Source: Agromyces italicus DSM 16388 (lineage in GTDB: Bacteria > Actinomycetota > Actinomycetes > Actinomycetales > Microbacteriaceae). From it: 64,000 nucleotides of DNA. The notes beneath the pieces were generated by a model that saw only the letters and a list, made by a program, of their open reading frames with translations, had not been told where the DNA came from and did no database searches. This document shows positions 5,103 through 28,331 of this stretch, in pieces. Within the stretch, counting starts at the first letter, position 1, and each line of letters starts with the position of its first letter. The position numbers and the translations under genes were made by a program. Location of the stretch: positions 124,001 to 188,000 of the forward strand of contig NZ_ATXF01000010.1 in NCBI RefSeq assembly GCF_000421545.1. The letters run 5' to 3'.

Positions 5103-6677
5103 ATGGCGAACTCGAGCGACACCTCCACCACTGAGACCGCGGCCTCGGCCACGACGAACGGCGACGAGGCCGGGCGCAACGCGAATCGGTCGACGACGCC
5201 CGGCTCCGAGGGCTTCAAGAACTTCATCGGCAGCGGCTGGGCCGATCGCGATGAGACGCTGCCGCAGGCACGACCCCAGGCGGCGAACGCCGCCGCGCGT
5301 CGCGCGAAGGTCTCCGCCGCGTTCCCGGGCCAGCGCCTCGTCATCCCCGCGGGTGACATGAAGCAGCGCGCGAACGACACCGACTACCCGTACCGGGCGC
5401 ATTCGGCGTTCGCGCACCTCACCGGCTGGGGCTCCGACTCCGAGCCCGGTGCGGTCCTCGTGCTCGAGCCGAATGGAGACACCGGTCACGAGGCGACCGT
5501 GTACTTCCGCGAGCGAGCGGGCCGCGACTCCGAGGAGTTCTACGCCAACCCCGCGATCGGCGAGTTCTGGATCGGCCCCCGTCCCTCCGTCGCGCACGTC
5601 GCCGCCGACCTCGCGGTCGCCACGCGTGACATCCTCGACTTCGACGCCGTCGTCAACGCGATCGACACGGCCACCCTCGTCGTGCGTGAGGCCGACGCCG
5701 CGATCACCGAGCGCGTCGACCACGCCCGCATCCGCTTCGCCGCCGAGCGCGTGCTCAGCGAGAACGCCCAGGACGCGGCGTTCTCGCTCGAGGTCGGCGG
5801 CGACCACGAGCCCGACGGCGAACTCGCGCGCGTCGTGAGCGAGCTGCGACTCGTGAAGGACGAGTACGAGATCGCCGAGATGCGCGCCGCGATCGACGCG
5901 ACCGAGCGCGGATTCGGCGAGGTGCTCGCCGAACTCCCCCGCATCACCGCCGAGGTGCGCGGCGAACGCGTCATCGAGGGCGTCTTCGCGACCCGGGCCC
6001 GGCTCGACGGCAACGACGTCGGCTACGGCTCGATCGCTGCGGCAGGGCCGCACGCGACGATCCTGCACTGGACCCGCAACGACGGCCCCGTCGTACCGGG
6101 CGATCTCGTGCTGCTCGACGCGGGCGTCGAGCTCGACTCGTACTACACGGCCGACATCACGCGCACCTTCCCGGTGAACGGCACCTTCTCGCCCGTGCAG
6201 CGCCAGGTCTACGAGGCCGTGCTCGAGGCCGCCGACGCGGCGTTCGCGATCGTGAAGCCCGGAATCGTGTTCCGCGAGGTGCACGCCGCGGCGATGGCCG
6301 TCATCGCACGCAAGACCGCCGAGTGGGGCTTCCTGCCGGTCTCCGCCGAAGAGTCGCTCCTGCCAGACAACCAGTTCCACCGCCGCTACATGGTGCACGG
6401 CACGAGCCACCACCTCGGTCTCGACGTGCACGACTGCGCGCAGGCGCGGCGCGAGCTCTACATGGACGGCGTGATCGAGGCCGGCATGATCTTCACGATC
6501 GAGCCGGGCCTGTACTTCCAGCCCGACGACCTCACGGTCCCGGCCGAGTTCCGCGGCATCGGCGTGCGCATCGAGGACGACATCCTCGTCACCGCCGACG
6601 GCGCCGAGAACCTCTCGGTGCGCATTCCGCGTACGGCCGACGCCGTGGAGGCGTGGGTGCAGGGCGCCCGCGGCTGA
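5103..6677 (+). CDS. pepP: Aminopeptidase P family (Xaa-Pro aminopeptidase)
   Basis: 524-residue cytoplasmic metallopeptidase that removes an N-terminal residue preceding proline. An N-terminal creatinase-like domain (about 60-230) is followed by the pita-bread catalytic domain. All five dimetal ligands are present: LLDAGVELD and ADITRTFP (Asp, Asp), HGTSHHLGLDVHD (His), FTIEPGLYF (Glu) and IGVRIEDDILV (Glu). The first 45 residues are a Thr/Ala/Asn-rich, probably disordered extension seen in actinobacterial homologues. GAGAAT lies six bases before ATG 5103, a weak -10 suggesting leaderless expression. It is monocistronic, convergent with the PGPGW gene after 51 bp. Confidence 0.93.
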   Translation: MANSSDTSTTETAASATTNGDEAGRNANRSTTPGSEGFKNFIGSGWADRDETLPQARPQAANAAARRAKVSAAFPGQRLVIPAGDMKQRANDTDYPYRAHSAFAHLTGWGSDSEPGAVLVLEPNGDTGHEATVYFRERAGRDSEEFYANPAIGEFWIGPRPSVAHVAADLAVATRDILDFDAVVNAIDTATLVVREADAAITERVDHARIRFAAERVLSENAQDAAFSLEVGGDHEPDGELARVVSELRLVKDEYEIAEMRAAIDATERGFGEVLAELPRITAEVRGERVIEGVFATRARLDGNDVGYGSIAAAGPHATILHWTRNDGPVVPGDLVLLDAGVELDSYYTADITRTFPVNGTFSPVQRQVYEAVLEAADAAFAIVKPGIVFREVHAAAMAVIARKTAEWGFLPVSAEESLLPDNQFHRRYMVHGTSHHLGLDVHDCAQARRELYMDGVIEAGMIFTIEPGLYFQPDDLTVPAEFRGIGVRIEDDILVTADGAENLSVRIPRTADAVEAWVQGARG

Positions 6678-8023: not shown

Positions 8024-9352
8024 GTGAGCGCAACGAGAGTCTTCGTCGCCCGACTCGCCGGGTGCGCCGTCTTCGACCCCGCCGGCGATCGGGTCGGCAA
8101 GGTGCGCGACGTCCTCGTCGTGTACCGCAAGAGCGACCCTCCGCGCGTCGTCGGCCTCATCGTCGAGATTCCCGGCAAGCGCCGCGTGTTCGTCTCGATC
8201 GGGCGGGTCACCTCGATCGGCGGCGGCCAGATCATCACGACCGGGCTCATCAATCTGCGGCGCTTCGAGCAGCGCGGCGGCGAGGTGCGCGTCATCGCCG
8301 AGATGCTCGGCCGCAAGGTGCTCTTCAACGACGGTTCGGGAACGGCCACCATCGAGGACGTCGCGATCGAGGAGCAGGAGCCCGGCGAGTGGGAGGTCGA
8401 CCAGCTCTTCGTGCGCCGACCCAAGGGCGCCTCGCCGTTCTCGAAGGGCCAGTCGGCGTACGTCACCTGGCGCGAGGTGCGCGAGCAGCTCGCGACCGGT
8501 GAGGCGCAGTCGGCCGAGCAGCTCATCGCGACCTACTCCGAGCTGAAGCCGGCCGACCTCGCGTCGACCCTGCTCGACCTGCCCGCGCAGCGGCGCCAGG
8601 AGGTCGCCGAGGAGCTCCCCGACGACCGGCTCGCCGACGTCCTCGAAGAGATGCCCGAGGCCGACCAGGTCGTCATCCTGGCGGGTCTCGGCGACGACCG
8701 TGCCGCCGACGTGCTCGACCACATGCAGCCAGACGACGCCGCCGACCTCATCGCCCAGCTTCCCGAGGAGCGCGGCGAGCACCTCCTCGAGCTCATGGAG
8801 CCGGAGGAGGCCGAGGACGTCCGCTTCCTCCTCTCCTACGGGCCCGACACCGCGGGCGGACTCATGACCACCGAGCCGATCATCGTGTCGGCCGACGCGA
8901 CGGTCGCCGAGGGGCTCGCCCTCATCCGCCGCCACGATCTGCCGCCCGCGCTCGGCGCCGCGGTCTGCGTGACGCTGCCGCCGTACGAGCCGCCCACCGG
9001 CCGGTTCCTCGGCATCGTGCACTTCCAGCGGATGCTCCGGTACCCGCCCCACGAGCGTCTCGGCACCCTGATCGACCAGGGCCTCGAGCCCGTGCGGGCC
9101 GACACCTCGGCCGCCGAGGTCAGCCGCATCCTCGCGAGCTACGACCTCGTCTCGGTGCCGGTCGTCGACGAGAAACACCGACTCGTCGGGGTGGTGACGA
9201 TTGACGACGTGCTCGACTACCTGTTGCCCGACGACTGGCGAAGTCACCCCGAAGAAGACGAGCTGGCCAAGCGCACGACCACGCGGGCGCAGCTGACGAC
9301 GGGAAGCATCCCGATCCCGTACGGAAGGAGGGGAGCAGATGGCACGCACTGA
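8024..9352 (+). CDS. MgtE N-domain / CBS-domain protein lacking the Mg channel
   Basis: 442 residues. A PRC-barrel-like N-terminal part (about 1-130) carries KVRDVLVVYRKSDPPRVVGL. It is followed by MgtE intracellular N-domain helical repeats (about 165-275, with repeated LADVLEEMP and DAADLIAQLPEE units) and a CBS pair ending VVDEKHRLVGVVTIDDVLDY. The membrane channel domain of true MgtE is absent, so this is probably a soluble Mg- or nucleotide-sensing regulator; homologous to Rv1232c from memory. GTG 8024 fits the upstream -10 box. The 3' end overlaps the DUF1003 gene by 14 nt, with AAGGAGGGGAG as that gene's ribosome-binding site. Confidence 0.85.
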   Translation: MSATRVFVARLAGCAVFDPAGDRVGKVRDVLVVYRKSDPPRVVGLIVEIPGKRRVFVSIGRVTSIGGGQIITTGLINLRRFEQRGGEVRVIAEMLGRKVLFNDGSGTATIEDVAIEEQEPGEWEVDQLFVRRPKGASPFSKGQSAYVTWREVREQLATGEAQSAEQLIATYSELKPADLASTLLDLPAQRRQEVAEELPDDRLADVLEEMPEADQVVILAGLGDDRAADVLDHMQPDDAADLIAQLPEERGEHLLELMEPEEAEDVRFLLSYGPDTAGGLMTTEPIIVSADATVAEGLALIRRHDLPPALGAAVCVTLPPYEPPTGRFLGIVHFQRMLRYPPHERLGTLIDQGLEPVRADTSAAEVSRILASYDLVSVPVVDEKHRLVGVVTIDDVLDYLLPDDWRSHPEEDELAKRTTTRAQLTTGSIPIPYGRRGADGTH

Positions 9353-9860: not shown

Positions 9861-11070
9861 GACCGGCACGCCCGACGCGCCCGTTTCCCCCGCCTCGACG
9901 GCCTCGCCGCTCGAGCAGGCTGTGCTGCGCGCCCTCGAATCGGTCATCGACCCCGAGATCCGCAAGCCCATCACCGAGCTCGACATGGTCGATCGCGTCG
10001 TCGAGCGTGAGAACGGCCTCGTCGAGGTGGGCATCAGGCTGACGATCGTCGGATGCCCCGCTTCCGACCGGATCGAACGCGACGTGCGGCAGGCCGCCGA
10101 GTCGGTCGCCGGGGCGGGCAACGCCGCGGTCGAGCTCTCGGTGATGACCCCCGAGCAGCGCGCCGCGCTCACCGAGCGACTGCGTGGCGGCCGGGCGGCG
10201 CGCACCAACCCGTTCGGCCCCGGCTCGCTGACACGCGTGATCGCCGTGACGAGCGGCAAGGGCGGCGTCGGCAAGTCGACCGTCACGGCGAACCTCGCCG
10301 TGGCGCTCGCCGCCCGCGGCCTCGCGGTCGGTCTCGTCGACGCCGATGTGCACGGCTTCTCGATTCCCGGGCTCCTGGGGCTCGTCGACGACGACGGCCT
10401 CGCCGCCCGCCCGACGCGGGTCGACGAGATGATCCTGCCGCCCGTGGCGCACGGCGTGAAGGTGATCTCGATCGGCATGTTCGTCGAGCCCGCGGCCCCC
10501 GGCGGGCGCGCCTCGTCGACGGCGGTGGCGTGGCGCGGGCCGATGCTGCACCGCACGCTCTCGCAGTTCCTCACCGACGTGTACTTCGGTGACCTCGACG
10601 TGCTGCTCGTCGACCTGCCGCCCGGCACGGGCGACGTCGCGATCTCGCTCGGGCAGTTGCTGCCGAACGCCGAGGTCGTCGTCGTCACGACCCCACAGGC
10701 GGCTGCGGCCGATGTCGCCGAGCGGTCGGGCGTCGTCGCCCGGCAGACGGGTCAGCGCATCGTCGGCGTCGTCGAGAACATGGCCGCGCTCGTGCAGCCG
10801 GACGGCACCCTGCTCGAGCTCTTCGGTTCGGGCGGCGGCGCCCTCGTCGCCGAGCGGCTCTCGGCGGGCGCCGGCGGGGGCGAGCCGGTGCCGCTGCTCG
10901 CGAGCGTGCCCCTCAGCATGGCGCTGCGTCAGGGCGGCGACATGGGCGTCCCGGTCGTCGTCGCCTCGCCCGACGATCCGGCGGCGCGTGCGATCGAGCA
11001 GGTGGCCGCGCAGCTCTCGGCGATGCCCCGTTCACTCGCGGGGCGCCGACTCGACGTCTCGGTCCGATGA
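9850..11070 (+). CDS. mrp: Mrp/NBP35-family P-loop ATPase, Fe-S carrier
   Basis: 406 residues. An N-terminal MIP18/DUF59 domain (about 18-100; VIDPEIRKPITELDMV) is followed by a deviant-Walker-A ATPase with SGKGGVGKST at about 135-144 and DLPPGTGD near 258. This architecture belongs to the Mrp/ApbC family, which binds and transfers Fe-S clusters in the cytoplasm. The usual CxxC pair of many homologues is not visible in the C-terminal part, so cluster binding by this protein is less certain. It is last in the MgtE_N-DUF1003-mrp operon. Confidence 0.92.
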   Translation: MPDETGTPDAPVSPASTASPLEQAVLRALESVIDPEIRKPITELDMVDRVVERENGLVEVGIRLTIVGCPASDRIERDVRQAAESVAGAGNAAVELSVMTPEQRAALTERLRGGRAARTNPFGPGSLTRVIAVTSGKGGVGKSTVTANLAVALAARGLAVGLVDADVHGFSIPGLLGLVDDDGLAARPTRVDEMILPPVAHGVKVISIGMFVEPAAPGGRASSTAVAWRGPMLHRTLSQFLTDVYFGDLDVLLVDLPPGTGDVAISLGQLLPNAEVVVVTTPQAAAADVAERSGVVARQTGQRIVGVVENMAALVQPDGTLLELFGSGGGALVAERLSAGAGGGEPVPLLASVPLSMALRQGGDMGVPVVVASPDDPAARAIEQVAAQLSAMPRSLAGRRLDVSVR

Positions 11071-11634
11071 GTCGGATGCCACGTGCTGCTGCCGCAGAGC
11101 GGTGCACGTGGCACGCGGCCGGGCCGGTGCACGAGGCAGTGGCGCCGACCAGGCACGCGCACTCGACGCCCGTTCGCCATTTCTCGGCGAGGGTTCCGGA
11201 ATTCGCTCTGTCAGTTCCCCCTCATCGACGGAACGGGACGGAGTAGACCCTCGGCCGCCGGCCGGGCCGGTGCGAGGATGTCGACCAAGCGCGCTCACTC
11301 GGGCCCCGCTCGCCATCGCTGGGCGAAAGCTCCGGAATTCGCAAAGTCAGTTCCCCCTCATCGAAGGAACCGAGTCGGGCCCGCTGCACCGGACGCAGCC
11401 CGGACTTTCTGCCTGATCCTTCTCCATCGGGTCCATCCACCCACCACCGACCCACGCGAGCCGCCCCACCGATGAGGCGGAACTGGCACAGCACCCACAA
11501 GACGACACAGCCCCAACACTGCACCGCCGACAAGACGACAAGACGACAAGACGACAAGACGACAAGCCGACTCCACCCCACCGATGAGGCGCAACTGGCA
11601 GAGCTCGAACGGAATCTCGGTCCGGCCGGGAGGA
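11071..11634. repeat. Noncoding repeat hub between convergent genes
   Basis: No credible gene is present. Four copies of a core CAGTTSCSCCTCATCG occur: two on the plus strand (11212-11228 and 11348-11364) and two on the minus strand (11470-11485 and 11582-11597), pointing at one another. The plus copies sit in two diverged direct repeats of about 136-143 bp (roughly 11117-11255 and 11260-11395), each with GGAATTCG just ahead of the core. Between the minus copies, about 11528-11567, the octamer ACAAGACG is repeated about five times in tandem. mrp and the PLP-enzyme gene converge on this region. Confidence 0.8.
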
Positions 11635-13218
11635 TCAGCGCCCGACGGCAGCCGGCGGCTCGACGACGCGGGCGAGCAGTTCGACGAGCAGGCGCTCGGT
11701 GAGCGGCCCGGGCAGCGCCTCGACGAGCGCGAGCACCGGTGCGAGCCGGTCGGGCAGCGCGCCCTCGCCGCCGAGGAGTCCGGCGGCACCCAGGATCGCG
11801 GCGGCGCCGTCGGAATCGAGGCCGGCCGCGAGCCCGGCGAGCACCTCGTCCCCTGCGAGCGCGGACAGCCCGCCGTCGTCGCCGACGAAGCCCGGCAGCG
11901 CCTCGACGAGGCCGGCGAGCGCGGCGCCGCCGTCGATCTGCGGGATGCCTCTGACTTCGTCGGCGGCGCTCACGAGCGCCGCGACGAGTTCGGGCAGCAC
12001 CCGTTCGGTGACGGGCGTCACGGTGAGGTGCGTCGTGTGCGGCAGCCGAGTGCCGTCGGCTTGGCCGAGCCCGGGCTGAAGTTGCAGCTGCCAGCCGGCC
12101 GAGCGTGCGGCATCCGCCCAGTGGTGGGGGTCGACGCGCGAGGTGGCCGGCGCGTCCTCGTCGGTGGCGACCGCGAGCAGCGGGCCGGTGGGCGAACCGA
12201 CGACCCGCAGCCCCTCGATTCCGTCGATCGTGGCGCGCAGCGCCGCGGTCGCGCGCGCCGCCTGCGCGGTGAGCTCGGTGAAGCCCGGCTCGCCGAGGGC
12301 TTCGATGATCGCCCAGGCCGCAGCGAGCGGGCCCGCCGGCTTCGAGCCGGTCATCGTCGGATTCACGACGGGGTACCCGGGCCATCCGGTCGTGGCGAAG
12401 TACTGGTGGCGCTGCCGATCGCGTCCGCGGGTCAGCAGGACCGACGCGCCCTTCGGCGCATACCCGTACTTGTGCAGATCGGCCGAGACGCTCGTCACGC
12501 CGGGCACGGAGAGGTTCCAGGCGGGCAGAGGCTCGGGCCAGAACGCGAGCGCGAACCCGCCGATGCAGGCGTCGACGTGCAGAGCGATGCCGCGCGCTGC
12601 GGTGATCGCCGCGACATCGGCGACGGGATCGAGGCTCGCGAACGGGTACGAGGGCGCGCTGAGCACCACGAGGGCGACGTCGTCACCGAGCCGCTCCTCG
12701 ATCGCCGCGGGCGTGAGCGTGCCCGTCGCCGGGTCGACCGACACGAGGTCGAGTTCGAGGCCGAAGTAGTGCGCCGCCTTGCGGAACGCCGCGTGCACCG
12801 TCACCGGGGCCACCAGGCGCGGCACGCGCGGCGATCCGAGCCGGGCCGCGCGCCAGGTGTCCCTGGCCGACTTCACCGCGAGCAGGCAGCTCTCGGTGCC
12901 GCCGGAGGTGACCGAGCCGACGACGACCTCGGCTTCGCCGCGACCGGCTTCCGCCTCGCCGCCGTCACCGCCGAGCACCCGGCGGGCGAAGCCGACCACG
13001 CTCCGTTCCATCGCGGCGACCGAGACGAACGTCGTCGGGTCGAGCCCGTTGACCGGTTGAACGCGGCGGGCCGCCTCGGCGGCGAGTTCGTCGAGCGCGG
13101 CGAGCCCCGAGTCGTAGACGTACGAGAGGACGCGCCCGCCGTGCGTCGGCGCATCGGCCGAGCGCAGCGCGTCGAGTTCGTCGAGAATGTCGGATGCCTC
13201 GCGGCGGAACCCGCTCAT
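11635..13218 (-). CDS. PLP-dependent group II decarboxylase / sphingosine-phosphate-lyase-like
   Basis: 527-residue fold-type I PLP enzyme. VTSGGTESCLLA (about 100) binds cofactor phosphate, HAAFRKAAHYFGL follows, HVDACIGGF holds the PLP-pyridine Asp, and DLHKYGYAPKG carries the Schiff-base Lys at about 250. This motif set matches the sphingosine-1-phosphate lyase branch rather than classical GadB. The last 90 or so residues are an Ala/Leu/Gly-rich helical extension not needed for the fold. ATG 13218 overlaps the stop of the upstream GPH transporter (ATGA), so the two are translationally coupled. The substrate is probably an amino acid or amino alcohol imported by that transporter (inference). 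Confidence 0.8.
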   Translation of the reverse strand: MSGFRREASDILDELDALRSADAPTHGGRVLSYVYDSGLAALDELAAEAARRVQPVNGLDPTTFVSVAAMERSVVGFARRVLGGDGGEAEAGRGEAEVVVGSVTSGGTESCLLAVKSARDTWRAARLGSPRVPRLVAPVTVHAAFRKAAHYFGLELDLVSVDPATGTLTPAAIEERLGDDVALVVLSAPSYPFASLDPVADVAAITAARGIALHVDACIGGFALAFWPEPLPAWNLSVPGVTSVSADLHKYGYAPKGASVLLTRGRDRQRHQYFATTGWPGYPVVNPTMTGSKPAGPLAAAWAIIEALGEPGFTELTAQAARATAALRATIDGIEGLRVVGSPTGPLLAVATDEDAPATSRVDPHHWADAARSAGWQLQLQPGLGQADGTRLPHTTHLTVTPVTERVLPELVAALVSAADEVRGIPQIDGGAALAGLVEALPGFVGDDGGLSALAGDEVLAGLAAGLDSDGAAAILGAAGLLGGEGALPDRLAPVLALVEALPGPLTERLLVELLARVVEPPAAVGR

Positions 13219-21196: not shown

Positions 21197-21243
21197 TTCG
21201 CGTGGGAGGCCGTCCGGCCCGGCGTCGCGGACGCGGGCCCGCT

Positions 21244-21249
21244 TAGACT
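21244..21249 (+). promoter_or_regulatory. -10 box of arsC
   Basis: TAGACT 41 bp before ATG 21291, giving a leader of about 35 nt that carries a GAGGAG Shine-Dalgarno-like run. Confidence 0.45.
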
Positions 21250-21290
21250 GAGGTTCTTCAAGAGTCCTTCGAGCCCGAGGAGCCCCGCCG

Positions 21291-21707
21291 ATGCCCGAGA
21301 AGCCCACCGTGCTGTTCGTCTGCGTGCACAACGCCGGCCGCTCGCAGATGGCTGCGGGATTCCTGCGCGAGCTCGGCGGCGACCGGGTCGAGGTGCGCTC
21401 GGCCGGCTCGGAGCCGAAGGAGCTGATCAACCCGGTCGCGGTCGAGGCGATGGCCGAGCAGGGCATCGACATCACGCACAATGTGCCGAAGGTGCTCACG
21501 ACCGACGCGGTCCGCGACTCCGACGTGGTCATCACGATGGGCTGCGGCGACGCCTGCCCGATCTTCCCGGGAAAGCGCTACGAGGACTGGCAGCTCGACG
21601 ACCCCGCCGGGCAGGGCATCGAGGCCGTGCGCCCGATCCGCGACGAGATCCGCGGCCGCGTCGAGGCCCTCCTCGCCGAGTTGCTCCCCGAGCGCTCGGG
21701 CGCCTGA
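21291..21707 (+). CDS. arsC: Arsenate reductase / arsenate-mycothiol transferase (LMW-PTP fold)
   Basis: 138 residues. The phosphatase P-loop CVHNAGRSQ (CX5R, Cys at about 11) lies near the N-terminus. MGCGDACPIFPGKRYEDW carries the second Cys pair and DDPAGQG holds the general acid Asp. In actinobacteria this group uses mycothiol/mycoredoxin or thioredoxin to reduce arsenate to arsenite. It is 36 bp from the convergent flavoprotein gene, with an ArsR regulator beyond. No arsenite pump gene lies in this cassette. Confidence 0.88.
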   Translation: MPEKPTVLFVCVHNAGRSQMAAGFLRELGGDRVEVRSAGSEPKELINPVAVEAMAEQGIDITHNVPKVLTTDAVRDSDVVITMGCGDACPIFPGKRYEDWQLDDPAGQGIEAVRPIRDEIRGRVEALLAELLPERSGA

Positions 21708-21743
21708 CCGGCGAGCACCGGCTTCACGGCGCCGCCGAGAGCT

Positions 21744-23075
21744 TCAGCAGCCCGAACTCGAGGAGCAGCAGCTCGAGGCGCCGCCGAGATCGGTCGAGCA
21801 CACCCCCGTCGCGGGCAGCACGAGTTCGACGTTCGTGGCGGCCGCGAGATCTCCGGCGATCCAGGCGGTGACCGAGCGCACCTGCTCGTACCCCGTGGCG
21901 AGCAGGAAGGTCGGCGCACGGCCGTACGACTTCATTCCGACGATGAAGAAGCCGTGCTCGGGGTGCGTGAGTTCGGCGAAGCCGTGCGGTTCGACCGTGC
22001 CGCACGAGTGCACGTTCGGATCGATGAGCGGTGCGAGCCGCTTCGGCGCCTCGACGATCTCGTCGAGGTCGAGTCGGATCTCGCGCAGCGGGTCGAGGTC
22101 GGGTCGGAAGCCCGTCGCGTTCACGACGAGGTCGCTCGGGTGCACCGCCAACTCGCCGGAACGCTGTCCGACCAGCTCGACGCCGTCGCCGGCGCGGCGG
22201 GCGCGGAGGATCTCGAATCCGTCGACGAGCTCGACGTCGCCGCGGCGGACTGCGGCGTCGACGCGGCCCCCGAGTTTCGCGCGGTCGGCGAGCCCGTCGT
22301 CAGCCGATGACGACACTCGGACGGCCTGGGCGTTGCGGATCAGCCAGGTGACCCGGGTGCCCGGCACCTCCCGCGCGAGCTGCACGAGCCCGAGCAGCGT
22401 GTTCGCCGCAGAGTGGCCGGCGCCGACGACCGTCGTGTGTCGTCCGGCGAAGGTGTCGCGATCGCGCCCGAGCACGTCGGGCAGGGCGGGCTGCACGAGG
22501 TCCGCGATCTCGTCGAGCCCGAGCAGAGCCAGCCCGCTCGAGCCCAGGGAGTTCGGCGTGCGATACGTGCCCGAGGCGTCGATCACCGCGCGGGCGGTCA
22601 GTTCTTCGACGCCGGCCGCGGTGCGCAGGCGCACGAGGAAGGGAGTGGTCGACCGCTTGGACGTGCGGGTGCGGTCCATGCCTTCGCGGCTGACCGCGAG
22701 CACCTCGGCGCCGGTACGGATTCGCGAGGCGATCGGCTCGAGTCGGCTGAGCGGCGCGAGATAGGCGTCGACGAGCTCGCGGCCCGCCGGCGCACGCTCG
22801 GGGTCGGGCAGCTCCCAGCCCTGCGCCTCGAGCAACCGCCTCGACGCCGGGTCGACGAGGTGCTTCCACGGCGAGAAGAGCCGGGTGTGCCCCCAGGCCC
22901 GCACGCTGTCGGCGATGCCGTCGCCGGCCTCGAGCACGACGAAGTCGATGCCGCGCAGGGCGAGGTTCGCGGCCGCGGCGAGCCCGATCGGACCGGCGCC
23001 CACGATCACCACCGGCAGGGTCGACAGATGATGATCGTCGGTCGCGGGCCGGGCGGTCAGTTCGATCAGCGTCAC
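21744..23075 (-). CDS. FAD/NAD(P)-binding monooxygenase-like protein of the ars cassette (ArsO-like)
   Basis: 443 residues. An FAD dinucleotide-binding motif VVIVGAGPIGLAAA at about 23-36 is followed by LEAGDGIADSVRAWGHTRLF. A second Rossmann motif TTVVGAGHSAANTLLG lies near 217 for NADPH, and VVNATGFRPDL near 325; this is the flavin monooxygenase/ArsO arrangement. The C-terminus is Cys-rich (GVCSTDLGGASSCC then SSSSGC), five Cys in the last 20 residues, a plausible metalloid-binding tail. GTG 23075 has AGGAGG six bases upstream. It is divergent from arsR, with two operator-like repeats between them. Confidence 0.78.
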   Translation of the reverse strand: MTLIELTARPATDDHHLSTLPVVIVGAGPIGLAAAANLALRGIDFVVLEAGDGIADSVRAWGHTRLFSPWKHLVDPASRRLLEAQGWELPDPERAPAGRELVDAYLAPLSRLEPIASRIRTGAEVLAVSREGMDRTRTSKRSTTPFLVRLRTAAGVEELTARAVIDASGTYRTPNSLGSSGLALLGLDEIADLVQPALPDVLGRDRDTFAGRHTTVVGAGHSAANTLLGLVQLAREVPGTRVTWLIRNAQAVRVSSSADDGLADRAKLGGRVDAAVRRGDVELVDGFEILRARRAGDGVELVGQRSGELAVHPSDLVVNATGFRPDLDPLREIRLDLDEIVEAPKRLAPLIDPNVHSCGTVEPHGFAELTHPEHGFFIVGMKSYGRAPTFLLATGYEQVRSVTAWIAGDLAAATNVELVLPATGVCSTDLGGASSCCSSSSGC

Positions 23076-23088
23076 TGCATCCTCCTGA

Positions 23089-23108
23089 ATATCGAGCGAT
23101 ATCGATGA
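23089..23108. promoter_or_regulatory. ArsR operator candidate 1
   Basis: AATATCGAGCGATATCGATG lies between the -10 region and ribosome-binding site of the flavoprotein gene; near-identical halves recur at 23150-23170. Confidence 0.55.
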
Positions 23109-23149
23109 ACTTCGATGTCGTCAGTATGGAATCAAACATCGATGGTTGT

Positions 23150-23170
23150 CAATATCGAGTAGTATCGATG
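23150..23170. promoter_or_regulatory. ArsR operator candidate 2
   Basis: CAATATCGAG followed by TAGTATCGATG repeats operator 1 and contains the arsR -10 box (23160-23165). Binding here would block the regulator's own promoter. A third partial match, ACATCGATGG, lies at 23137-23146. Confidence 0.55.
23160..23165 (+). promoter_or_regulatory. -10 box of arsR (leaderless)
   Basis: TAGTAT six bases before ATG 23172, inside operator candidate 2. Confidence 0.5.
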
Positions 23171-23171
23171 C

Positions 23172-23537
23172 ATGGTCACGACGCTCGAAGTCACGGATGT
23201 CTCTGCCGGCGTGTGCTGTGCACCGCTCGTTCACGAGCCGCTCAGCACCGTCGACGCCGAACGACTCGCCCACACCATGAAGGCCCTCGCCGACCCCACC
23301 CGGCTCCGACTGCTGTCGATCGTCGCCGCCTCCGAGGGGCAGGAGGCCTGCGTCTGCGACCTCACCGAGCCCGTCGCCCTCAGCCAGCCGACCGTCTCGC
23401 ACCACCTCAAGATCCTCACCGAAGCGGGCTTCCTCAGCCGAAGCAAGCGCGGCACCTGGGCGTACTACGCGCTCGTCCCCGAGCGCCTCGACGAGGTCGC
23501 CCGCACGCTCCTCGCCGGCTCGCACACCGGCGTGTGA
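23172..23537 (+). CDS. arsR: ArsR-family winged-helix metalloregulator
   Basis: 121 residues. The winged HTH shows LADPTRLRLLSIVA, LSQPTVSHHLKILTEAG and SRSKRGTWAYYALV. Candidate As(III) ligands are a vicinal Cys pair near the N-terminus (GVCCAPL, residues about 14-15) and ACVCDL near the DNA-binding helix (about 58-60). It should repress the divergent flavoprotein gene and itself, releasing DNA on binding arsenite (established for the family). The AT-rich intergenic region carries two matching operator repeats. Its start is fixed by the -10 box at 23160. Confidence 0.9.
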   Translation: MVTTLEVTDVSAGVCCAPLVHEPLSTVDAERLAHTMKALADPTRLRLLSIVAASEGQEACVCDLTEPVALSQPTVSHHLKILTEAGFLSRSKRGTWAYYALVPERLDEVARTLLAGSHTGV

Positions 23538-23578
23538 GCACCGACGTCGAACCACGTCACACGCACACCCCGCCTCGC

Positions 23579-23590: not shown

Positions 23591-24541
23591 ATGCCCGCGA
23601 ACGACACCTCCTCCCCCGCTGCCCGCACCGCCTCCGCCGCCGGGCTCACGACCATCGCCGGTGACGGCACGGTGCTCGACGCGTGGTTCCCGACGCCACG
23701 ACTCGGCTCCGAGGCATCCCCCCTCGCCCCCGAGCACGCCGCCCTCGCGGGCGACGACTCCCGCCGCAACGTGCGCATCGAGCAGCTCGAGCTCACGATC
23801 GACCTCGATGCGGCTCCCGCGGGCACGGCCGACGCCTACCTCCGCCTCCATCTGCTCTCGCACCTCCTCGCGGCGCCCAACACGGTGAATCTCGACGGTG
23901 TCTTCGGCCACCTGCCCGCCGTCGTCTGGACGAACGCCGGCCCGGTGCAGCCCGCCGACTTCGACCGGCTGCGGCCGGCGCTGCAGCGCGCGGGCATCCA
24001 CGCGACGGGGCTCGACAAGTTCCCGCGCCTGCTCGACTACGTCACTCCCGAGCGGGTGCGCATCGCGGATGCCTCGCGCGTGCGCCTCGGCGCGCACCTC
24101 GCCCCCGGCACGACGGTCATGCACGAGGGCTTCGTGAACTTCAACGCCGGCACGCTCGGCACCTCGATGGTCGAGGGTCGCATCTCGCAGGGCGTCGTCG
24201 TCGGCGACGGCAGCGACATCGGCGGCGGCGCGTCGATCATGGGCACCCTGTCGGGCGGCGGCACCCAGCGCGTCGAGATCGGCGAGCGGGCGCTGCTCGG
24301 CGCGAACTCGGGCATCGGCATCTCGATCGGCGACGACTCGGTCGTCGAGGCGGGCCTCTACGTCACCGCGGGCACGAAGGTCGTGATCGTCGGTCACGGC
24401 GGCGAGGAGCGCACCGTGAAAGCGGTCGAGCTGTCGGGGCAGCCGGGCCTGCTGTTCCGCCGCAACTCGCTGAGCGGTCGCGTCGAGGTGCTCGCGCGCG
24501 ACGGGCACGGCATCGTGCTCAACTCGGCGCTGCACGCGTAG
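23591..24541 (+). CDS. dapD: 2,3,4,5-tetrahydropyridine-2,6-dicarboxylate N-succinyltransferase
   Basis: 316-residue left-handed beta-helix acyltransferase of the actinobacterial DapD type. It transfers succinyl from succinyl-CoA to tetrahydrodipicolinate in lysine/DAP synthesis. An N-terminal alpha/beta domain (about 60-150) is followed by hexapeptide repeats: [40 protein letters not shown] (catalytic Glu region) and [20 protein letters not shown]. The last 48 bp before the stop codon are exactly repeated 1,024 bp downstream, which marks an integration-like event. ATG 23591 lies six bases from a -10 box. Confidence 0.93.
24490..24537 (+). repeat. 48-bp direct repeat, left copy (3' end of dapD)
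   Basis: Identical base for base to 25514-25561. It begins GCTCGCGCGCGACGGGCACG and ends CGGCGCTGCACGC, inside the dapD coding sequence. Looser similarity (GCGCCCGGWACGC) continues past the stop codon. Confidence 0.85.
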
Positions 24542-24602
24542 AGGCGAGGGCGCCCGGAACGCGGTTGCGCTTCAACGACACGCGAGGATCATCGCCGCGT
24601 AA

Positions 24603-25109
24603 TCACTGCACGCACGCCTCGGGGTCGATCTTGGCTTCGAGGAGTTGCTGCCAGACTGTGGCCGCATCAGCGGCTGGTGCGATACCGTGCTCCTCGAGAC
24701 ACGCTTGGTAGAGCCTGTTCGTTTCAGAGGTGTCTTCGTGCGCAAGCTGCCAGGCGACATCGATCTGAGCGAACTCTCGTTCGTAGCAGCGCTGATCGTC
24801 GCCGGATCGGATGGCGTCGGCGTCGGCCACGGCGTAGTCGATGACGTCGCCATCCGACTCGGAGACGATGACCTCGGCGCCCGCCTGCTCCATGCACTCG
24901 GCAAACCGGGCGAAGCCGGCGTCGTACTCCGAACGGGAAACCTCGCCGTCGCCCATCGCGCTCGACTGCTCGTCCGAGATCAGGATCTTGGGCAAGTCGC
25001 TCCTGGTGATCTCCGCGCTGTCGGCGGTCGCATCCGCCATCGCACATCCGGTCAACGTGCCGAGGACGGCGAACGCCACAACGATCGCGCCGGCTTTTCG
25101 AGTGTTCAT
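24603..25109 (-). CDS. Islet lipoprotein, function unknown
   Basis: 168 residues. The signal peptide MNTRKAGAIVVAFAVLGTLT ends in lipobox LTGC (Cys at about 21), so it should be lipid-anchored on the outer face of the membrane. The mature part is acidic with paired Cys residues (FAECMEQAGAEV, DDQRCYERE and YQACLEEHGIAP), a Cys-stabilised helical pattern. No family was recognised. ATG 25109 is preceded by a GGGGAGAGG purine run; a longer upstream start is possible but would bury the signal peptide. It lies wholly in the islet bounded by the dapD repeats. Confidence 0.7.
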   Translation of the reverse strand: MNTRKAGAIVVAFAVLGTLTGCAMADATADSAEITRSDLPKILISDEQSSAMGDGEVSRSEYDAGFARFAECMEQAGAEVIVSESDGDVIDYAVADADAIRSGDDQRCYEREFAQIDVAWQLAHEDTSETNRLYQACLEEHGIAPAADAATVWQQLLEAKIDPEACVQ

Positions 25110-25122
25110 CAGCCTCTCCCCG

Positions 25123-25479
25123 TCAACTCGTGAACGTCGGGTGCACGGCACCGTGATGTTCACCGCTCGTCGTACCGGATTGGTACTTCACCGCAGAACT
25201 CGCCCCATACACCCAGCCGGTCCAATACGTCGGTCCGCCGGGGTATGCCATAAAGCGGGCACGAACACCAACTTCAACAATGTGGCAATCGCTGGTCTTG
25301 TAGGTCTGCGCCCCGCCAGAGAGATCGGTGTTCCTCCAGGAATAGCCTTTGATCTGCCCCGTTCCACCGGTTCCGTAGACACAGTTGATCGAGTTGTTGC
25401 CCAGCGCAGGACCGAGCCGGAGACCAAGACCATCGTTGCAAGGACTTCCCCCCGAAGGTCGTTCGCAACGCTTTCGCAT
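25123..25479 (-). CDS. Islet small protein, possibly frameshifted secreted protein
   Basis: 118-codon frame from ATG 25479. From residue about 27 the sequence looks like a mature secreted protein (GNNSINCVYGTGGTGQIKGY, then SWRNTDLSGGAQ, YKTSDCHIVEVGVRAR and YWTGWVYGAS) with two Cys. The first 25 residues look wrong for a signal peptide. The neighbouring frame over the same DNA (about 25405-25460) reads LRGEVLATMVLVSGSVL, a plausible signal peptide core, suggesting a frameshift or a different start. TAGTGT lies directly before ATG 25479. No family was recognised. It is 13 bp from the lipoprotein gene. Confidence 0.45.
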   Translation of the reverse strand: MRKRCERPSGGSPCNDGLGLRLGPALGNNSINCVYGTGGTGQIKGYSWRNTDLSGGAQTYKTSDCHIVEVGVRARFMAYPGGPTYWTGWVYGASSAVKYQSGTTSGEHHGAVHPTFTS

Positions 25480-25513
25480 ACACTAGCGCGAGCCTCGACA
25501 TGGAACAAGGATG

Positions 25514-25561
25514 GCTCGCGCGCGACGGGCACGGCATCGTGCTCAACTCGGCGCTGCACGC
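25514..25561 (+). repeat. 48-bp direct repeat, right copy (dapD 3'-end duplicate)
   Basis: Perfect copy of 24490-24537, followed by ATAG where dapD has GTAG. It no longer belongs to a gene and marks the right end of the islet. Confidence 0.85.
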
Positions 25562-25582
25562 ATAGGGCGCGCCCGGTACGCA

Positions 25583-25621
25583 GGTTTCGAGACGCGTCGA
25601 CTCCGTCGGCGCTCCTCGACC
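25583..25621 (-). repeat. Dispersed 39-bp repeat, copy 2
   Basis: Read on the minus strand it starts GGTCGAGGAGCGCCG and ends CGACGCGTCTCGAAACC; about 36 of 39 positions match the copy at 56965-57003. It lies just outside the right end of the dapD islet. Confidence 0.75.
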
Positions 25622-25680
25622 AGCGGTGGTCCTCCGGGTGGGTCATGCGACCCATTCGCACGGAGTACAGTGGTGCTTCC

Positions 25681-25702
25681 GAGACCGCCGTGCGGCGGTC
25701 TC
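25681..25702 (+). promoter_or_regulatory. Hairpin in the leader of the penicillin acylase gene
   Basis: GAGACCGCC and GGCGGTCTC form a 9-bp stem with a GTGC loop, between a TACAGT -10 candidate (about 25665) and the AAGGAG ribosome-binding site. It may stabilise or attenuate the transcript. Confidence 0.4.
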
Positions 25703-25727
25703 GTCGCGCGCATCACGAAGGAGTGAC

Positions 25728-28331
25728 GTGGGTACCGACGCCCCGAGAACCCGCCGCCATCGCGGCCTGAGCTTCCTCATCGGCCTGCTGGTCACCGTGC
25801 TGGTGCTCGGCGTCGCGGGTGCCGGCCTCGGCTGGTGGACGGTGCAGCGCTCGTTCCCGACGACGAGCGGCCGCATCGATGTGCCCGGGCTCACCACGAG
25901 CGTCACGGTGTACCGCGACGACGCCGGCATCCCCCAGCTCGTCGCCGAGACGAGCCGCGACCTCTTCTTCGCGCAGGGCTACGTGCACGCGCAGGATCGC
26001 TTCTGGGAGATGGACTTCCGCCGCCACGTCACCGCGGGCCGCCTCGCCGAGATGTTCGGCGAATCGCAGGTCGGCACCGACAGCTTCATCCGGACCCTGG
26101 ATTGGCGGGGCATCGCCGAGCAGGAATACGCACAGCTCGACGAGGAGTCGCGCGCGTACTACGAGGCCTATGCCGCGGGGGTGAACGCCTATCTGGGCGA
26201 ACGCAGCGGCGCCGATCTCTCGCTCGAGTACGCGGTGCTCGGCCTCCAGAACGGCGCCTACTCCCCCGAGCCGTGGACCCCGGTCGACTCGATCGCCTGG
26301 CTCAAGGCCATGGCCTGGGATCTCCGCTCGAACCTCGGCGACGAGATCGACCGGGCTCTCCTGGCCTCCGCGCTGCCCGCCGAAGAGGTCGCGCGCCTCC
26401 ACCCCGACTTCCCGTGGGGCGCGATGCCGACGATCGTCGGCGGTCCCCTCGTCGCCGCGCCGGTCGCCTCCTCGGTCACCCCGCTCGACGATGCGGGCGA
26501 ACCGGGCGCCGAGAACGCGGCGGCGACCGACGCGTCGACGACTTCGACGATCGAGGCGGATGCCACGGCGCCCGAGCATCTCGCGGCGCTCGCCTCGCTC
26601 GCGCAGACCATCGATGGCATCCCCGAGCTGCTCGGCCCCGAGGGCGGCGATCTCGGTTCGAACTCGTGGGTCGTCTCGGGCGCGCTCACCGAGAGCGGCA
26701 AGCCGCTGCTCGCGAACGACCCGCACCTCGGGCCGGCGATGCCCTCCATCTGGACGCAGATGGGTCTGCACTGCGCCGTGGTGAACGACGCCTGCCCGTT
26801 CGACGTCGCCGGCTACTCGTTCTCGGGGCTGCCCGGCATCGTGATCGGTCACAACGAACGCATCGCCTGGGGCTTCACCAATCTCGGGCCCGATGTCGCC
26901 GACCTCTACCTCGAGCGCGTCGACGGCGACAGCTACGAACTCGACGGAACGATGGTGCCGCTCACGATCCGCGAAGAGGTCATCGAGGTCGCGGGCGGCG
27001 ACCCGGTGACGATCACCGTGCGCTCGACCGGTCGCGGGCCGATCGTCACCGGCATCGGCTCCGACTTCGGCGCGGTCGCCGAGTCCTACCCCGCGGCATC
27101 CGACGCCCCAGAGGGCGACTACCAGGTCTCCCTGCAGTGGACCGCGCTCACCCCCGGCACCACGGCCCAGGCGATCTTCGCGCTCGACCGTGCGCGCGAC
27201 TGGGAGGGGTTCCGCCACGCGGCCTCCCTCTTCGACGTTCCGTCGCAGAATCTCGTCTACGCCGACGACACGGGCATGATCGGCTACCAGGCGCCCGGCA
27301 AGATCCCCGTGCGCAAGTCGGGCGACGGCACCGTGCCGATGCCCGGCTGGACGAGCGCGAACGGCTGGTCCGGCATGCTGCCGTTCGATCAGCTGCCGAG
27401 CGTGCAGAACCCGCCTGCGGGCTATATCGTGACCGCGAACAACGCCGCCGCGGGCCCCGACGGCCCCCTGATCACGAAGGACTGGGACTACGGCTACCGC
27501 GCCGCGAGCATCGACAAGCTGATCCGCGAGCGACTCGACGCCGGCGAGAAGCTCACGGCCGACGACCTCCTCGACATCCAGCTCGACACGAGCGACCTGA
27601 ACGCGCAGCAGTTCCTGCCGTTCATCGCCGAACTCTCGGCGAGCCTCGACGGCGATGCCGCGCGCGGCGCGGCCCTGCTCGACGGCTGGAACGCGAAGGC
27701 CGACGCCGACAGCGCCGAAGCCGCCTACTTCGCCGTGTTCTGGCGCACTCTGCTGGGCGACATGTTCGGCGAGCTGCCCGAGCAGACCCGCCCACAGGGC
27801 GGCGACCGCTGGTTCGACGTCGTCGGCACCCTGCTCGGCGAACCCGAGAACGATTGGTGGGGCGACGGCGGCCGCGATGCGGCGATCTCCGGCGCGCTCG
27901 ACGCGGCGTGGGCCGAGGCATCCGAGCTCATGGGCGACGACGACGCCGCATGGCGCTGGGGCGAGCTGCACACCCTCACGCTCACCAATCAGAGCTTCGG
28001 AGAGTCGGGCATCGGGCCCATCGAGTGGCTCTTCAACCGCGGACCCTACGAACTCGGCGGCGGCTCGGCGATCGTCAACGCGATCGGCTGGGACGCGAGC
28101 ATCGGCTACGGCGTCGACTGGGTGCCGTCGATGCGCATGGTGATCGACCTCGACGACCTCGACGAGTCGCGCTGGATCAACCTCACGGGCGCGTCGGGGC
28201 ACGCCTTCAATCCGCACTACGACGACCAGGCGCCGCTCTGGCAGCGCGGCGAGACCCGGCCGTGGCCGTTCACGCTCGACGCCGTCACCGAGGCTGCGCA
28301 CGACACGCTCGTGCTGCGGCCGGCCGGCTGA
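25728..28331 (+). CDS. Penicillin acylase family amidohydrolase
   Basis: 867 residues, Ntn-hydrolase precursor. An N-terminal membrane helix or signal anchor (LSFLIGLLVTVLVLGVAGAG) is followed by the alpha subunit (about 55-240, with RDDAGIPQLVAETSRDLFFA and AQDRFWEMDFRRH). The beta subunit begins at the nucleophile Ser in GSNSWVVSG near residue 308, where autoproteolysis normally occurs; ANDPHLG and NERIAWGFTN follow. Such enzymes deacylate penicillins, acyl-homoserine lactones or related amides on the cell exterior; the substrate here is unknown. GTG 25728 has AAGGAG five bases upstream; upstream in-frame codons are noncoding. Confidence 0.88.
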   Translation: MGTDAPRTRRHRGLSFLIGLLVTVLVLGVAGAGLGWWTVQRSFPTTSGRIDVPGLTTSVTVYRDDAGIPQLVAETSRDLFFAQGYVHAQDRFWEMDFRRHVTAGRLAEMFGESQVGTDSFIRTLDWRGIAEQEYAQLDEESRAYYEAYAAGVNAYLGERSGADLSLEYAVLGLQNGAYSPEPWTPVDSIAWLKAMAWDLRSNLGDEIDRALLASALPAEEVARLHPDFPWGAMPTIVGGPLVAAPVASSVTPLDDAGEPGAENAAATDASTTSTIEADATAPEHLAALASLAQTIDGIPELLGPEGGDLGSNSWVVSGALTESGKPLLANDPHLGPAMPSIWTQMGLHCAVVNDACPFDVAGYSFSGLPGIVIGHNERIAWGFTNLGPDVADLYLERVDGDSYELDGTMVPLTIREEVIEVAGGDPVTITVRSTGRGPIVTGIGSDFGAVAESYPAASDAPEGDYQVSLQWTALTPGTTAQAIFALDRARDWEGFRHAASLFDVPSQNLVYADDTGMIGYQAPGKIPVRKSGDGTVPMPGWTSANGWSGMLPFDQLPSVQNPPAGYIVTANNAAAGPDGPLITKDWDYGYRAASIDKLIRERLDAGEKLTADDLLDIQLDTSDLNAQQFLPFIAELSASLDGDAARGAALLDGWNAKADADSAEAAYFAVFWRTLLGDMFGELPEQTRPQGGDRWFDVVGTLLGEPENDWWGDGGRDAAISGALDAAWAEASELMGDDDAAWRWGELHTLTLTNQSFGESGIGPIEWLFNRGPYELGGGSAIVNAIGWDASIGYGVDWVPSMRMVIDLDDLDESRWINLTGASGHAFNPHYDDQAPLWQRGETRPWPFTLDAVTEAAHDTLVLRPAG

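Follow-up and report, generated by a model that had tools for sequence, protein, structure and literature searches.

Organization of the dapD locus

The window, that is, the whole 64,000-bp stretch of Agromyces italicus DNA analyzed here, comes from a soil actinobacterium and contains a duplicated gene end. The gene is dapD, an essential gene of the lysine pathway, and its last 52 bp, stop codon included (24490-24541), recur at 25514-25565 with 51 of 52 bases identical. The two copies start 1024 bp apart and enclose a short islet, behind which lie a spacer and an amidase gene:

23591-24541, plus strand: dapD, 316 aa, intact (Pfam Hexapep_2 and THDPS_M above cut-off)
24490-24541, plus strand: repeat copy 1 (direct repeat D1), containing the last codons of the functional dapD and its stop
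24542-25513, no strand: islet, 972 bp, GC 62%, missing at the same site in relatives
24550-24569, plus strand: diverged repeat extension behind copy 1, aligned with 25569-25589
24603-25109, minus strand: intact lipoprotein gene of 168 aa with an LTGC lipobox (by eye), belonging to no named family (alignment A1)
25123-25501, minus strand: small secreted-protein gene, broken, with an open frame at 25123-25479 and a likely start codon at 25499-25501 (from sequence, frames and comparison with locus L180 of genome G003)
25514-25565, plus strand: repeat copy 2, the displaced former dapD end, now non-coding, base 25562 changed
25566-25727, plus strand: native dapD-to-amidase spacer, resembling those of G032 and G019 (alignment)
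25728-28331, plus strand: penicillin amidase family gene, which in Agromyces customarily follows dapD (the ORF 25626-28331 matches Penicil_amidase at E 8e-231)

The initial annotation had reported a perfect recurrence of 48 bp (24490-24537 at 25514-25561). This holds, and the true repeat reaches further, to 24541 and 25565, stopping exactly at the dapD stop codon. In a window of the same composition, about 7e-17 perfect 48-mer pairs are expected by chance. A 38-base core of the repeat, searched with up to three mismatches, has two sites in the 3.73-Mb genome, both at the dapD locus, and no third copy of the dapD end was detected by this search. At the single mismatch between the copies, copy 1 agrees with five aligned relatives, and the substitution in copy 2 is hence the derived state. 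The GC content between the copies is indeed lower than that of the whole window (62.3% versus 71.1%), and the lipoprotein and the small ORF attributed to the islet were both found, the latter lacking a proper 5' end. No sigma-70-like promoter or intrinsic terminator was recognized in 24400-25800, in what is a weak test on GC-rich DNA.

An arrangement of this kind might be suspected of being an artefact of assembly, a reading that has nothing but the rarity of the arrangement in its favour. We deem it highly improbable: the islet lies well inside a contig of 231,562 bases (C10), at 148.5-149.6 kb, its repeat copies differ by one base, and a DNA search of the genome returned no second full copy of the islet, just two matches of about 35 bases.

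An empty site in Agromyces relatives

A dapD homolog was identified in all 60 Agromyces genomes, and in 55 of them a penicillin-amidase match begins 71-211 bp past the dapD stop, the upper figure (G019) reflecting an amidase match that begins at residue 36. The remaining five are the window genome, with 1187 bp to the amidase; G074, in which dapD and the amidase are separated by 5571 bp with frames that by eye look like transposase, transporter and two-component genes; G065, with no amidase match behind dapD; and G078 and G082, whose contigs end behind dapD. In 57 other Agromyces genomes the scan reached 0.9 kb or more past dapD, and none of them has a second dapD end. The DNA scanned amounted to about 1.5 kb for most of the first 30 genomes and to 5-10 kb for most others, and a larger element is excluded wherever the amidase gene comes straight after dapD.

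The initial annotation had suggested comparing this region across relatives, and the comparison yielded the one-copy empty sites that it had in mind and no larger elements between the repeats. Two patterns that it had set against its own reading did not occur: no islet-free relative carries both copies, and the islet is not vertically conserved, being represented as DNA in the other Agromyces genomes of the 60 by pieces of at most 67 bp. The blastn match to G032 begins at 25514, and past copy 2 the window can be aligned with the spacer of G032 and G019. Since the native spacer of the lineage follows copy 2, this copy is the displaced native dapD end; and since copy 2 bears that spacer and relatives show the empty site, the islet is an insertion. 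The dapD-amidase interval carries cargo in a few genomes of the family, and this cargo differs among G074 and two genomes of another genus, G090 and G172.

The dapE-dapD interval (21202-23574 in the window) varies too, with FAD-monooxygenase-like (by eye) and ArsR genes in the window, a ROK-like gene in G032 and a 1172-aa glycosidase-like ORF in G013 (both by eye). A separate observation concerns a record titled Stenotrophomonas maltophilia P13 (JACEFY010000018.1; L102), the DapD of which is 69% identical to the actinobacterial DapD of the window, possibly through contamination.

The edges of the islet

The weaker match said to continue beyond the repeat is present and short: 24550-24569 and 25569-25589 agree in 18 of 21 columns, with one gap. 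Tests with 5000 shuffled or random sequences each put its p value at 0.0002-0.002 when the windows span 30-40 bp, and the signal drops over 60 bp (p = 0.003 and 0.026). Because the coding part of the repeat is identical at 51 of 52 positions whereas the part past the stop has diverged and acquired a gap, the pair points to a donor allele rather than to a simple target duplication.

At the opposite edge, adjoining copy 2, the small secreted-protein gene is broken. Its domain lies in the frame 25123-25479, which starts without a signal peptide, and the likely start codon and the hydrophobic stretch sit in other frames. The start codon is 12 bp from copy 2, with no ribosome site visible by eye, unlike in G003. 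An edge so close to a start codon, with no visible ribosome site and a broken frame, fits an illegitimate junction better than the natural end of an element.

Repair of a break would be one way to arrive at such a structure. Foreign DNA would have been caught at a staggered or re-replicated break in the dapD end, fill-in would have generated a 52-bp target duplication, and selection would have kept those events that left dapD whole. The simple direct duplication around foreign DNA devoid of element features agrees with this, as does a perfect 9-bp inverted repeat across the right junction (25486-25494 and 25513-25521). Against a background of about 0.6 inverted repeats of this kind per kb of the window, however, this one may be due to chance, and the diverged extension past the stop is unexpected if one site gave both copies. 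We regard break repair as unlikely.

The lipoprotein module in other genomes

At a cut-off of E 0.01, the lipoprotein is matched in 10 of the 60 Agromyces genomes, the window genome counted, and below 1e-19 in five, again including the window genome; a slightly longer query found it in 14 of the 150 genomes sampled from the family. Directly upstream and in the same direction, a small secreted-looking gene is present in G003, in G018 (two loci), in G035 and, outside the genus, in G093, and a weaker match to it precedes the lipoprotein in G069. The pair of secreted protein and lipoprotein is patchy in the family. It constitutes an unnamed conserved module, a secreted-looking protein with a conserved-cysteine lipoprotein (loci L180, L181, L182, L189, L170, L205 and L207), some versions of which extend to a peptidoglycan-binding-domain protein, an ABC ATPase (by Pfam) and a membrane-like protein without Pfam match. 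Its role is possibly in peptide export or immunity. Phage and plasmid records encode no such lipoprotein at the limits used.

Direct repeats flanking the module within 5 kb were absent, at the cut-off, from 15 of 20 other lipoprotein-homolog loci, a set from which two more loci lacking a lipoprotein match were excluded. The other five loci have flanking repeats, none of which is a dapD end, and a separate check of nine loci revealed no repeats around the module. With 15 of 20 loci free of flanking repeats, the module is disfavoured as a mobile unit. The non-autonomous cassette put forward in the initial annotation is weakened on the same grounds, and further by the right edge of the islet, which cuts the start region of the broken gene. 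One five-gene version of the module with transporter-like genes (L178; G144:C19:57000-76000) lies between near-identical direct repeats of 165 bp at 5552 and 9759, 4.2 kb apart and unrelated to dapD.

The dapD end as a possible integration site

Two features of the islet are those of an integrative element: direct repeats comprising a gene 3' end that restores dapD, and an empty site in relatives. It might accordingly be the remnant or satellite of a site-specific element for which the dapD 3' end served as attB, with an attP carrying a dapD end, the two copies as attL and attR, and a recombinase since lost or acting from elsewhere. This is the main rival to the reading that we favour, and we hold it to be possible rather than probable. 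The passage of the repeat through the stop codon, which regenerates dapD, and the empty site both speak for it. Against it, the lack of a recombinase noted in the initial annotation was borne out: neither islet ORF matches any family at E 1 or better in Pfam, NCBIfam or PHROGs, and the PF00589 (tyrosine recombinase) and PF00239 matches of the genome (seven and one, respectively) all lie outside contig C10. In addition, the boundary with copy 2 interrupts a gene in its start region. Nor does the islet have the marks of an IS element or transposon: its two ORFs match no family, and no inverted repeat of at least 16 bp pairs its edges.

Data on mobile elements also argue against an integrative element. 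One rather narrow dapD-end pattern, which fits the end in the window and would miss that of G090, had no exact match in IMG/VR, and the dapD-end hits in phage and plasmid records were just weak or bacterial-looking among the matches listed (20 of 152 and 20 of 59 records). A phage origin was considered and rejected, as the two unannotated 'Bacteriophage sp.' records that matched best show bacterial-looking frames (citrate-synthase-like and dapD, labelled by eye). Two GenBank records filed as bacteriophage, MT836793.1 and MT835995.1, combine dapD ends with bacterial-looking frames and are probably chromosome fragments; in Pseudonocardia, an annotation table places a dapD on a plasmid. A search of the literature, mostly outside subscription journals, brought up no account of dapD as an integration site, its one match dealing with gene-therapy vectors. 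Likewise, dapD did not occur among the matches listed for attachment sites and genomic islands, and the titles of work on Agromyces genomic islands point to nothing on the dapD locus.

A second duplicated dapD end bears on the same question. In G090, a genome of another genus, the last 27 bp of dapD plus 9 bp beyond are repeated at 35 of 36 positions 1099 bp downstream (L231; G090:C2:218000-236000, dapD end near 9110, minus strand), an independent duplication of the dapD 3' end. The repeat encloses, on the opposite strand, a gene with DUF2231 and Rieske domains that is unrelated to the cargo in the window, and genes of the epimerase and TetR families come next, ahead of the amidase gene. In G172, the sole comparison genome in the genus of G090, the interval holds an amidohydrolase-family gene and no second dapD end. 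Of 398 genomes in the family, 132 matched a wider dapD-end pattern, which copy 2 of the window fails by one base; two exact hits occurred in G090 only.

Besides G090 and Agromyces, 116 regions were added from the list of genomes matching this pattern. The pooled set comprises 244 distinct dapD ends, each followed by 700 bp or more; the downstream DNA covered amounts to about 5 kb for 206 of them and to at least 9 kb for 165. A duplicated gene end was observed at two of the 244 dapD ends (window and G090) versus one of 2355 other gene ends, which a simple composition rule had picked out; the sole control case is a called gene end near the module locus in G144. The difference has a Fisher p of 0.025, or about 0.18 once the case of the window, which prompted the search, is set aside. 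Other repeats behind dapD (G304, G218, G345 and the Microbacterium loci L137, L140 and L112) were rejected as gene-end duplications, being palindromic or terminator-like, tandem paralogues or a local tandem repeat. The repeat in G304 (L260) is a 58-nt palindromic element whose copies (11041-11098 and 12040-12097, 83% alike) flank the gene behind dapD, and similar hairpins follow dapD at L137 and L140.

The dapD end is therefore a possible preferred site, and both the G090 case, with unrelated cargo of similar size in another genus, and the excess of duplicated dapD ends lend weight to the att remnant. Among the 244 ends, however, we encountered no larger element that bears a second dapD end, and the unusual integration target of the initial annotation is a possibility, given that a dapD-end duplication with unrelated cargo recurs in one other genus. 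A bolder proposal strikes us as quite unlikely. It would make the 3' end of dapD an att-like target used repeatedly across Microbacteriaceae: small cassettes of roughly 1 kb, carrying unrelated genes but no recombinase of their own, would be inserted there, probably by an enzyme supplied from elsewhere, and every insertion would leave behind an extra dapD end.

Origin of the islet

The islet looks like a decayed one-off acquisition and not like a working mobile element. The reading that we favour, and to which we attach close to an even chance, is that DNA was imported through homology in the dapD end, that the event was closed by illegitimate joining, and that what remains is a decaying scar, a term already offered in the initial annotation and well supported here. 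We infer a donor, an order of events and a mechanism combining homologous with illegitimate joining. On the incoming DNA, the secreted-protein/lipoprotein module would have stood behind the 3' end of a closely related dapD. Homologous recombination in the dapD end would have produced, at one side, an intact dapD with new downstream sequence; at the other, illegitimate joining 52 bp before the old dapD terminates would have left that gene end and its native spacer behind as copy 2. From then on, the islet would have been immobile and subject to decay.

Import is favoured over a living att element because the repeat has a diverged continuation, the start region is cut, and neither a recombinase nor a larger relative was seen. 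It is supported as well by the empty site, by the native spacer joined to copy 2, by the varied cargo of the interval in G074, G090 and G172, and by an apparent exchange of dapD-end alleles in a relative. In G013 (L216), the final 180 bp of dapD are closest to G064, G081, G018 and G067 (85-86%), whereas over that stretch the window shares about 91% with G032 and G019, which are equally close to each other; the dapD 3' end of G013 resembles another Agromyces clade and is probably a recombinant allele. A recombinant origin of the window's own dapD end was rejected, G013 being the odd one. On the other hand, a dapD with the secreted-protein/lipoprotein module behind it, as a donor would have, was not seen in the Agromyces genomes scanned. 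Three further points weigh against import: the similarity of the extension spans just 21 columns and fades in longer windows, a repeat ending exactly at a stop codon is also a hallmark of site-specific integration, and the duplicated dapD end of G090 may indicate a preferred site.

Comparison with known systems

The dapD islet illustrates cleanly how an essential gene can come through the arrival of foreign DNA in its final codons. It also shows that looking like an att-flanked island and being supported as one are different things. With a similar case at dapD in a second genus, a larger set of genomes could test whether the site is preferred.

The 3' end of a protein-coding gene serves as attB for the integrative element e14, which resides at icd. 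SGI1 is reported to use trmE in the same manner. The dapD islet resembles elements of this type in its direct repeat of a gene 3' end, in the regeneration of the gene and in the empty site of relatives; it departs from them in that no recombinase was found and there are no mobility genes, in its size of about 1 kb, in having one edge that cuts a gene, and in that no related element was seen at dapD. Hotspots of gene exchange bounded by core genes are a known class, and the different cargo between dapD and the amidase in G074, G090 and G172 is reminiscent of them, whereas 55 of the 60 Agromyces genomes carry no cargo there. In homology-facilitated illegitimate recombination, one junction is homologous and the other is not, and recipient sequence can be duplicated in the process. 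The dapD islet differs from it in that the donor has not been seen and the junction is known from a single genome, and it matches it both in the proposed pair of junctions and in the duplicated recipient sequence.
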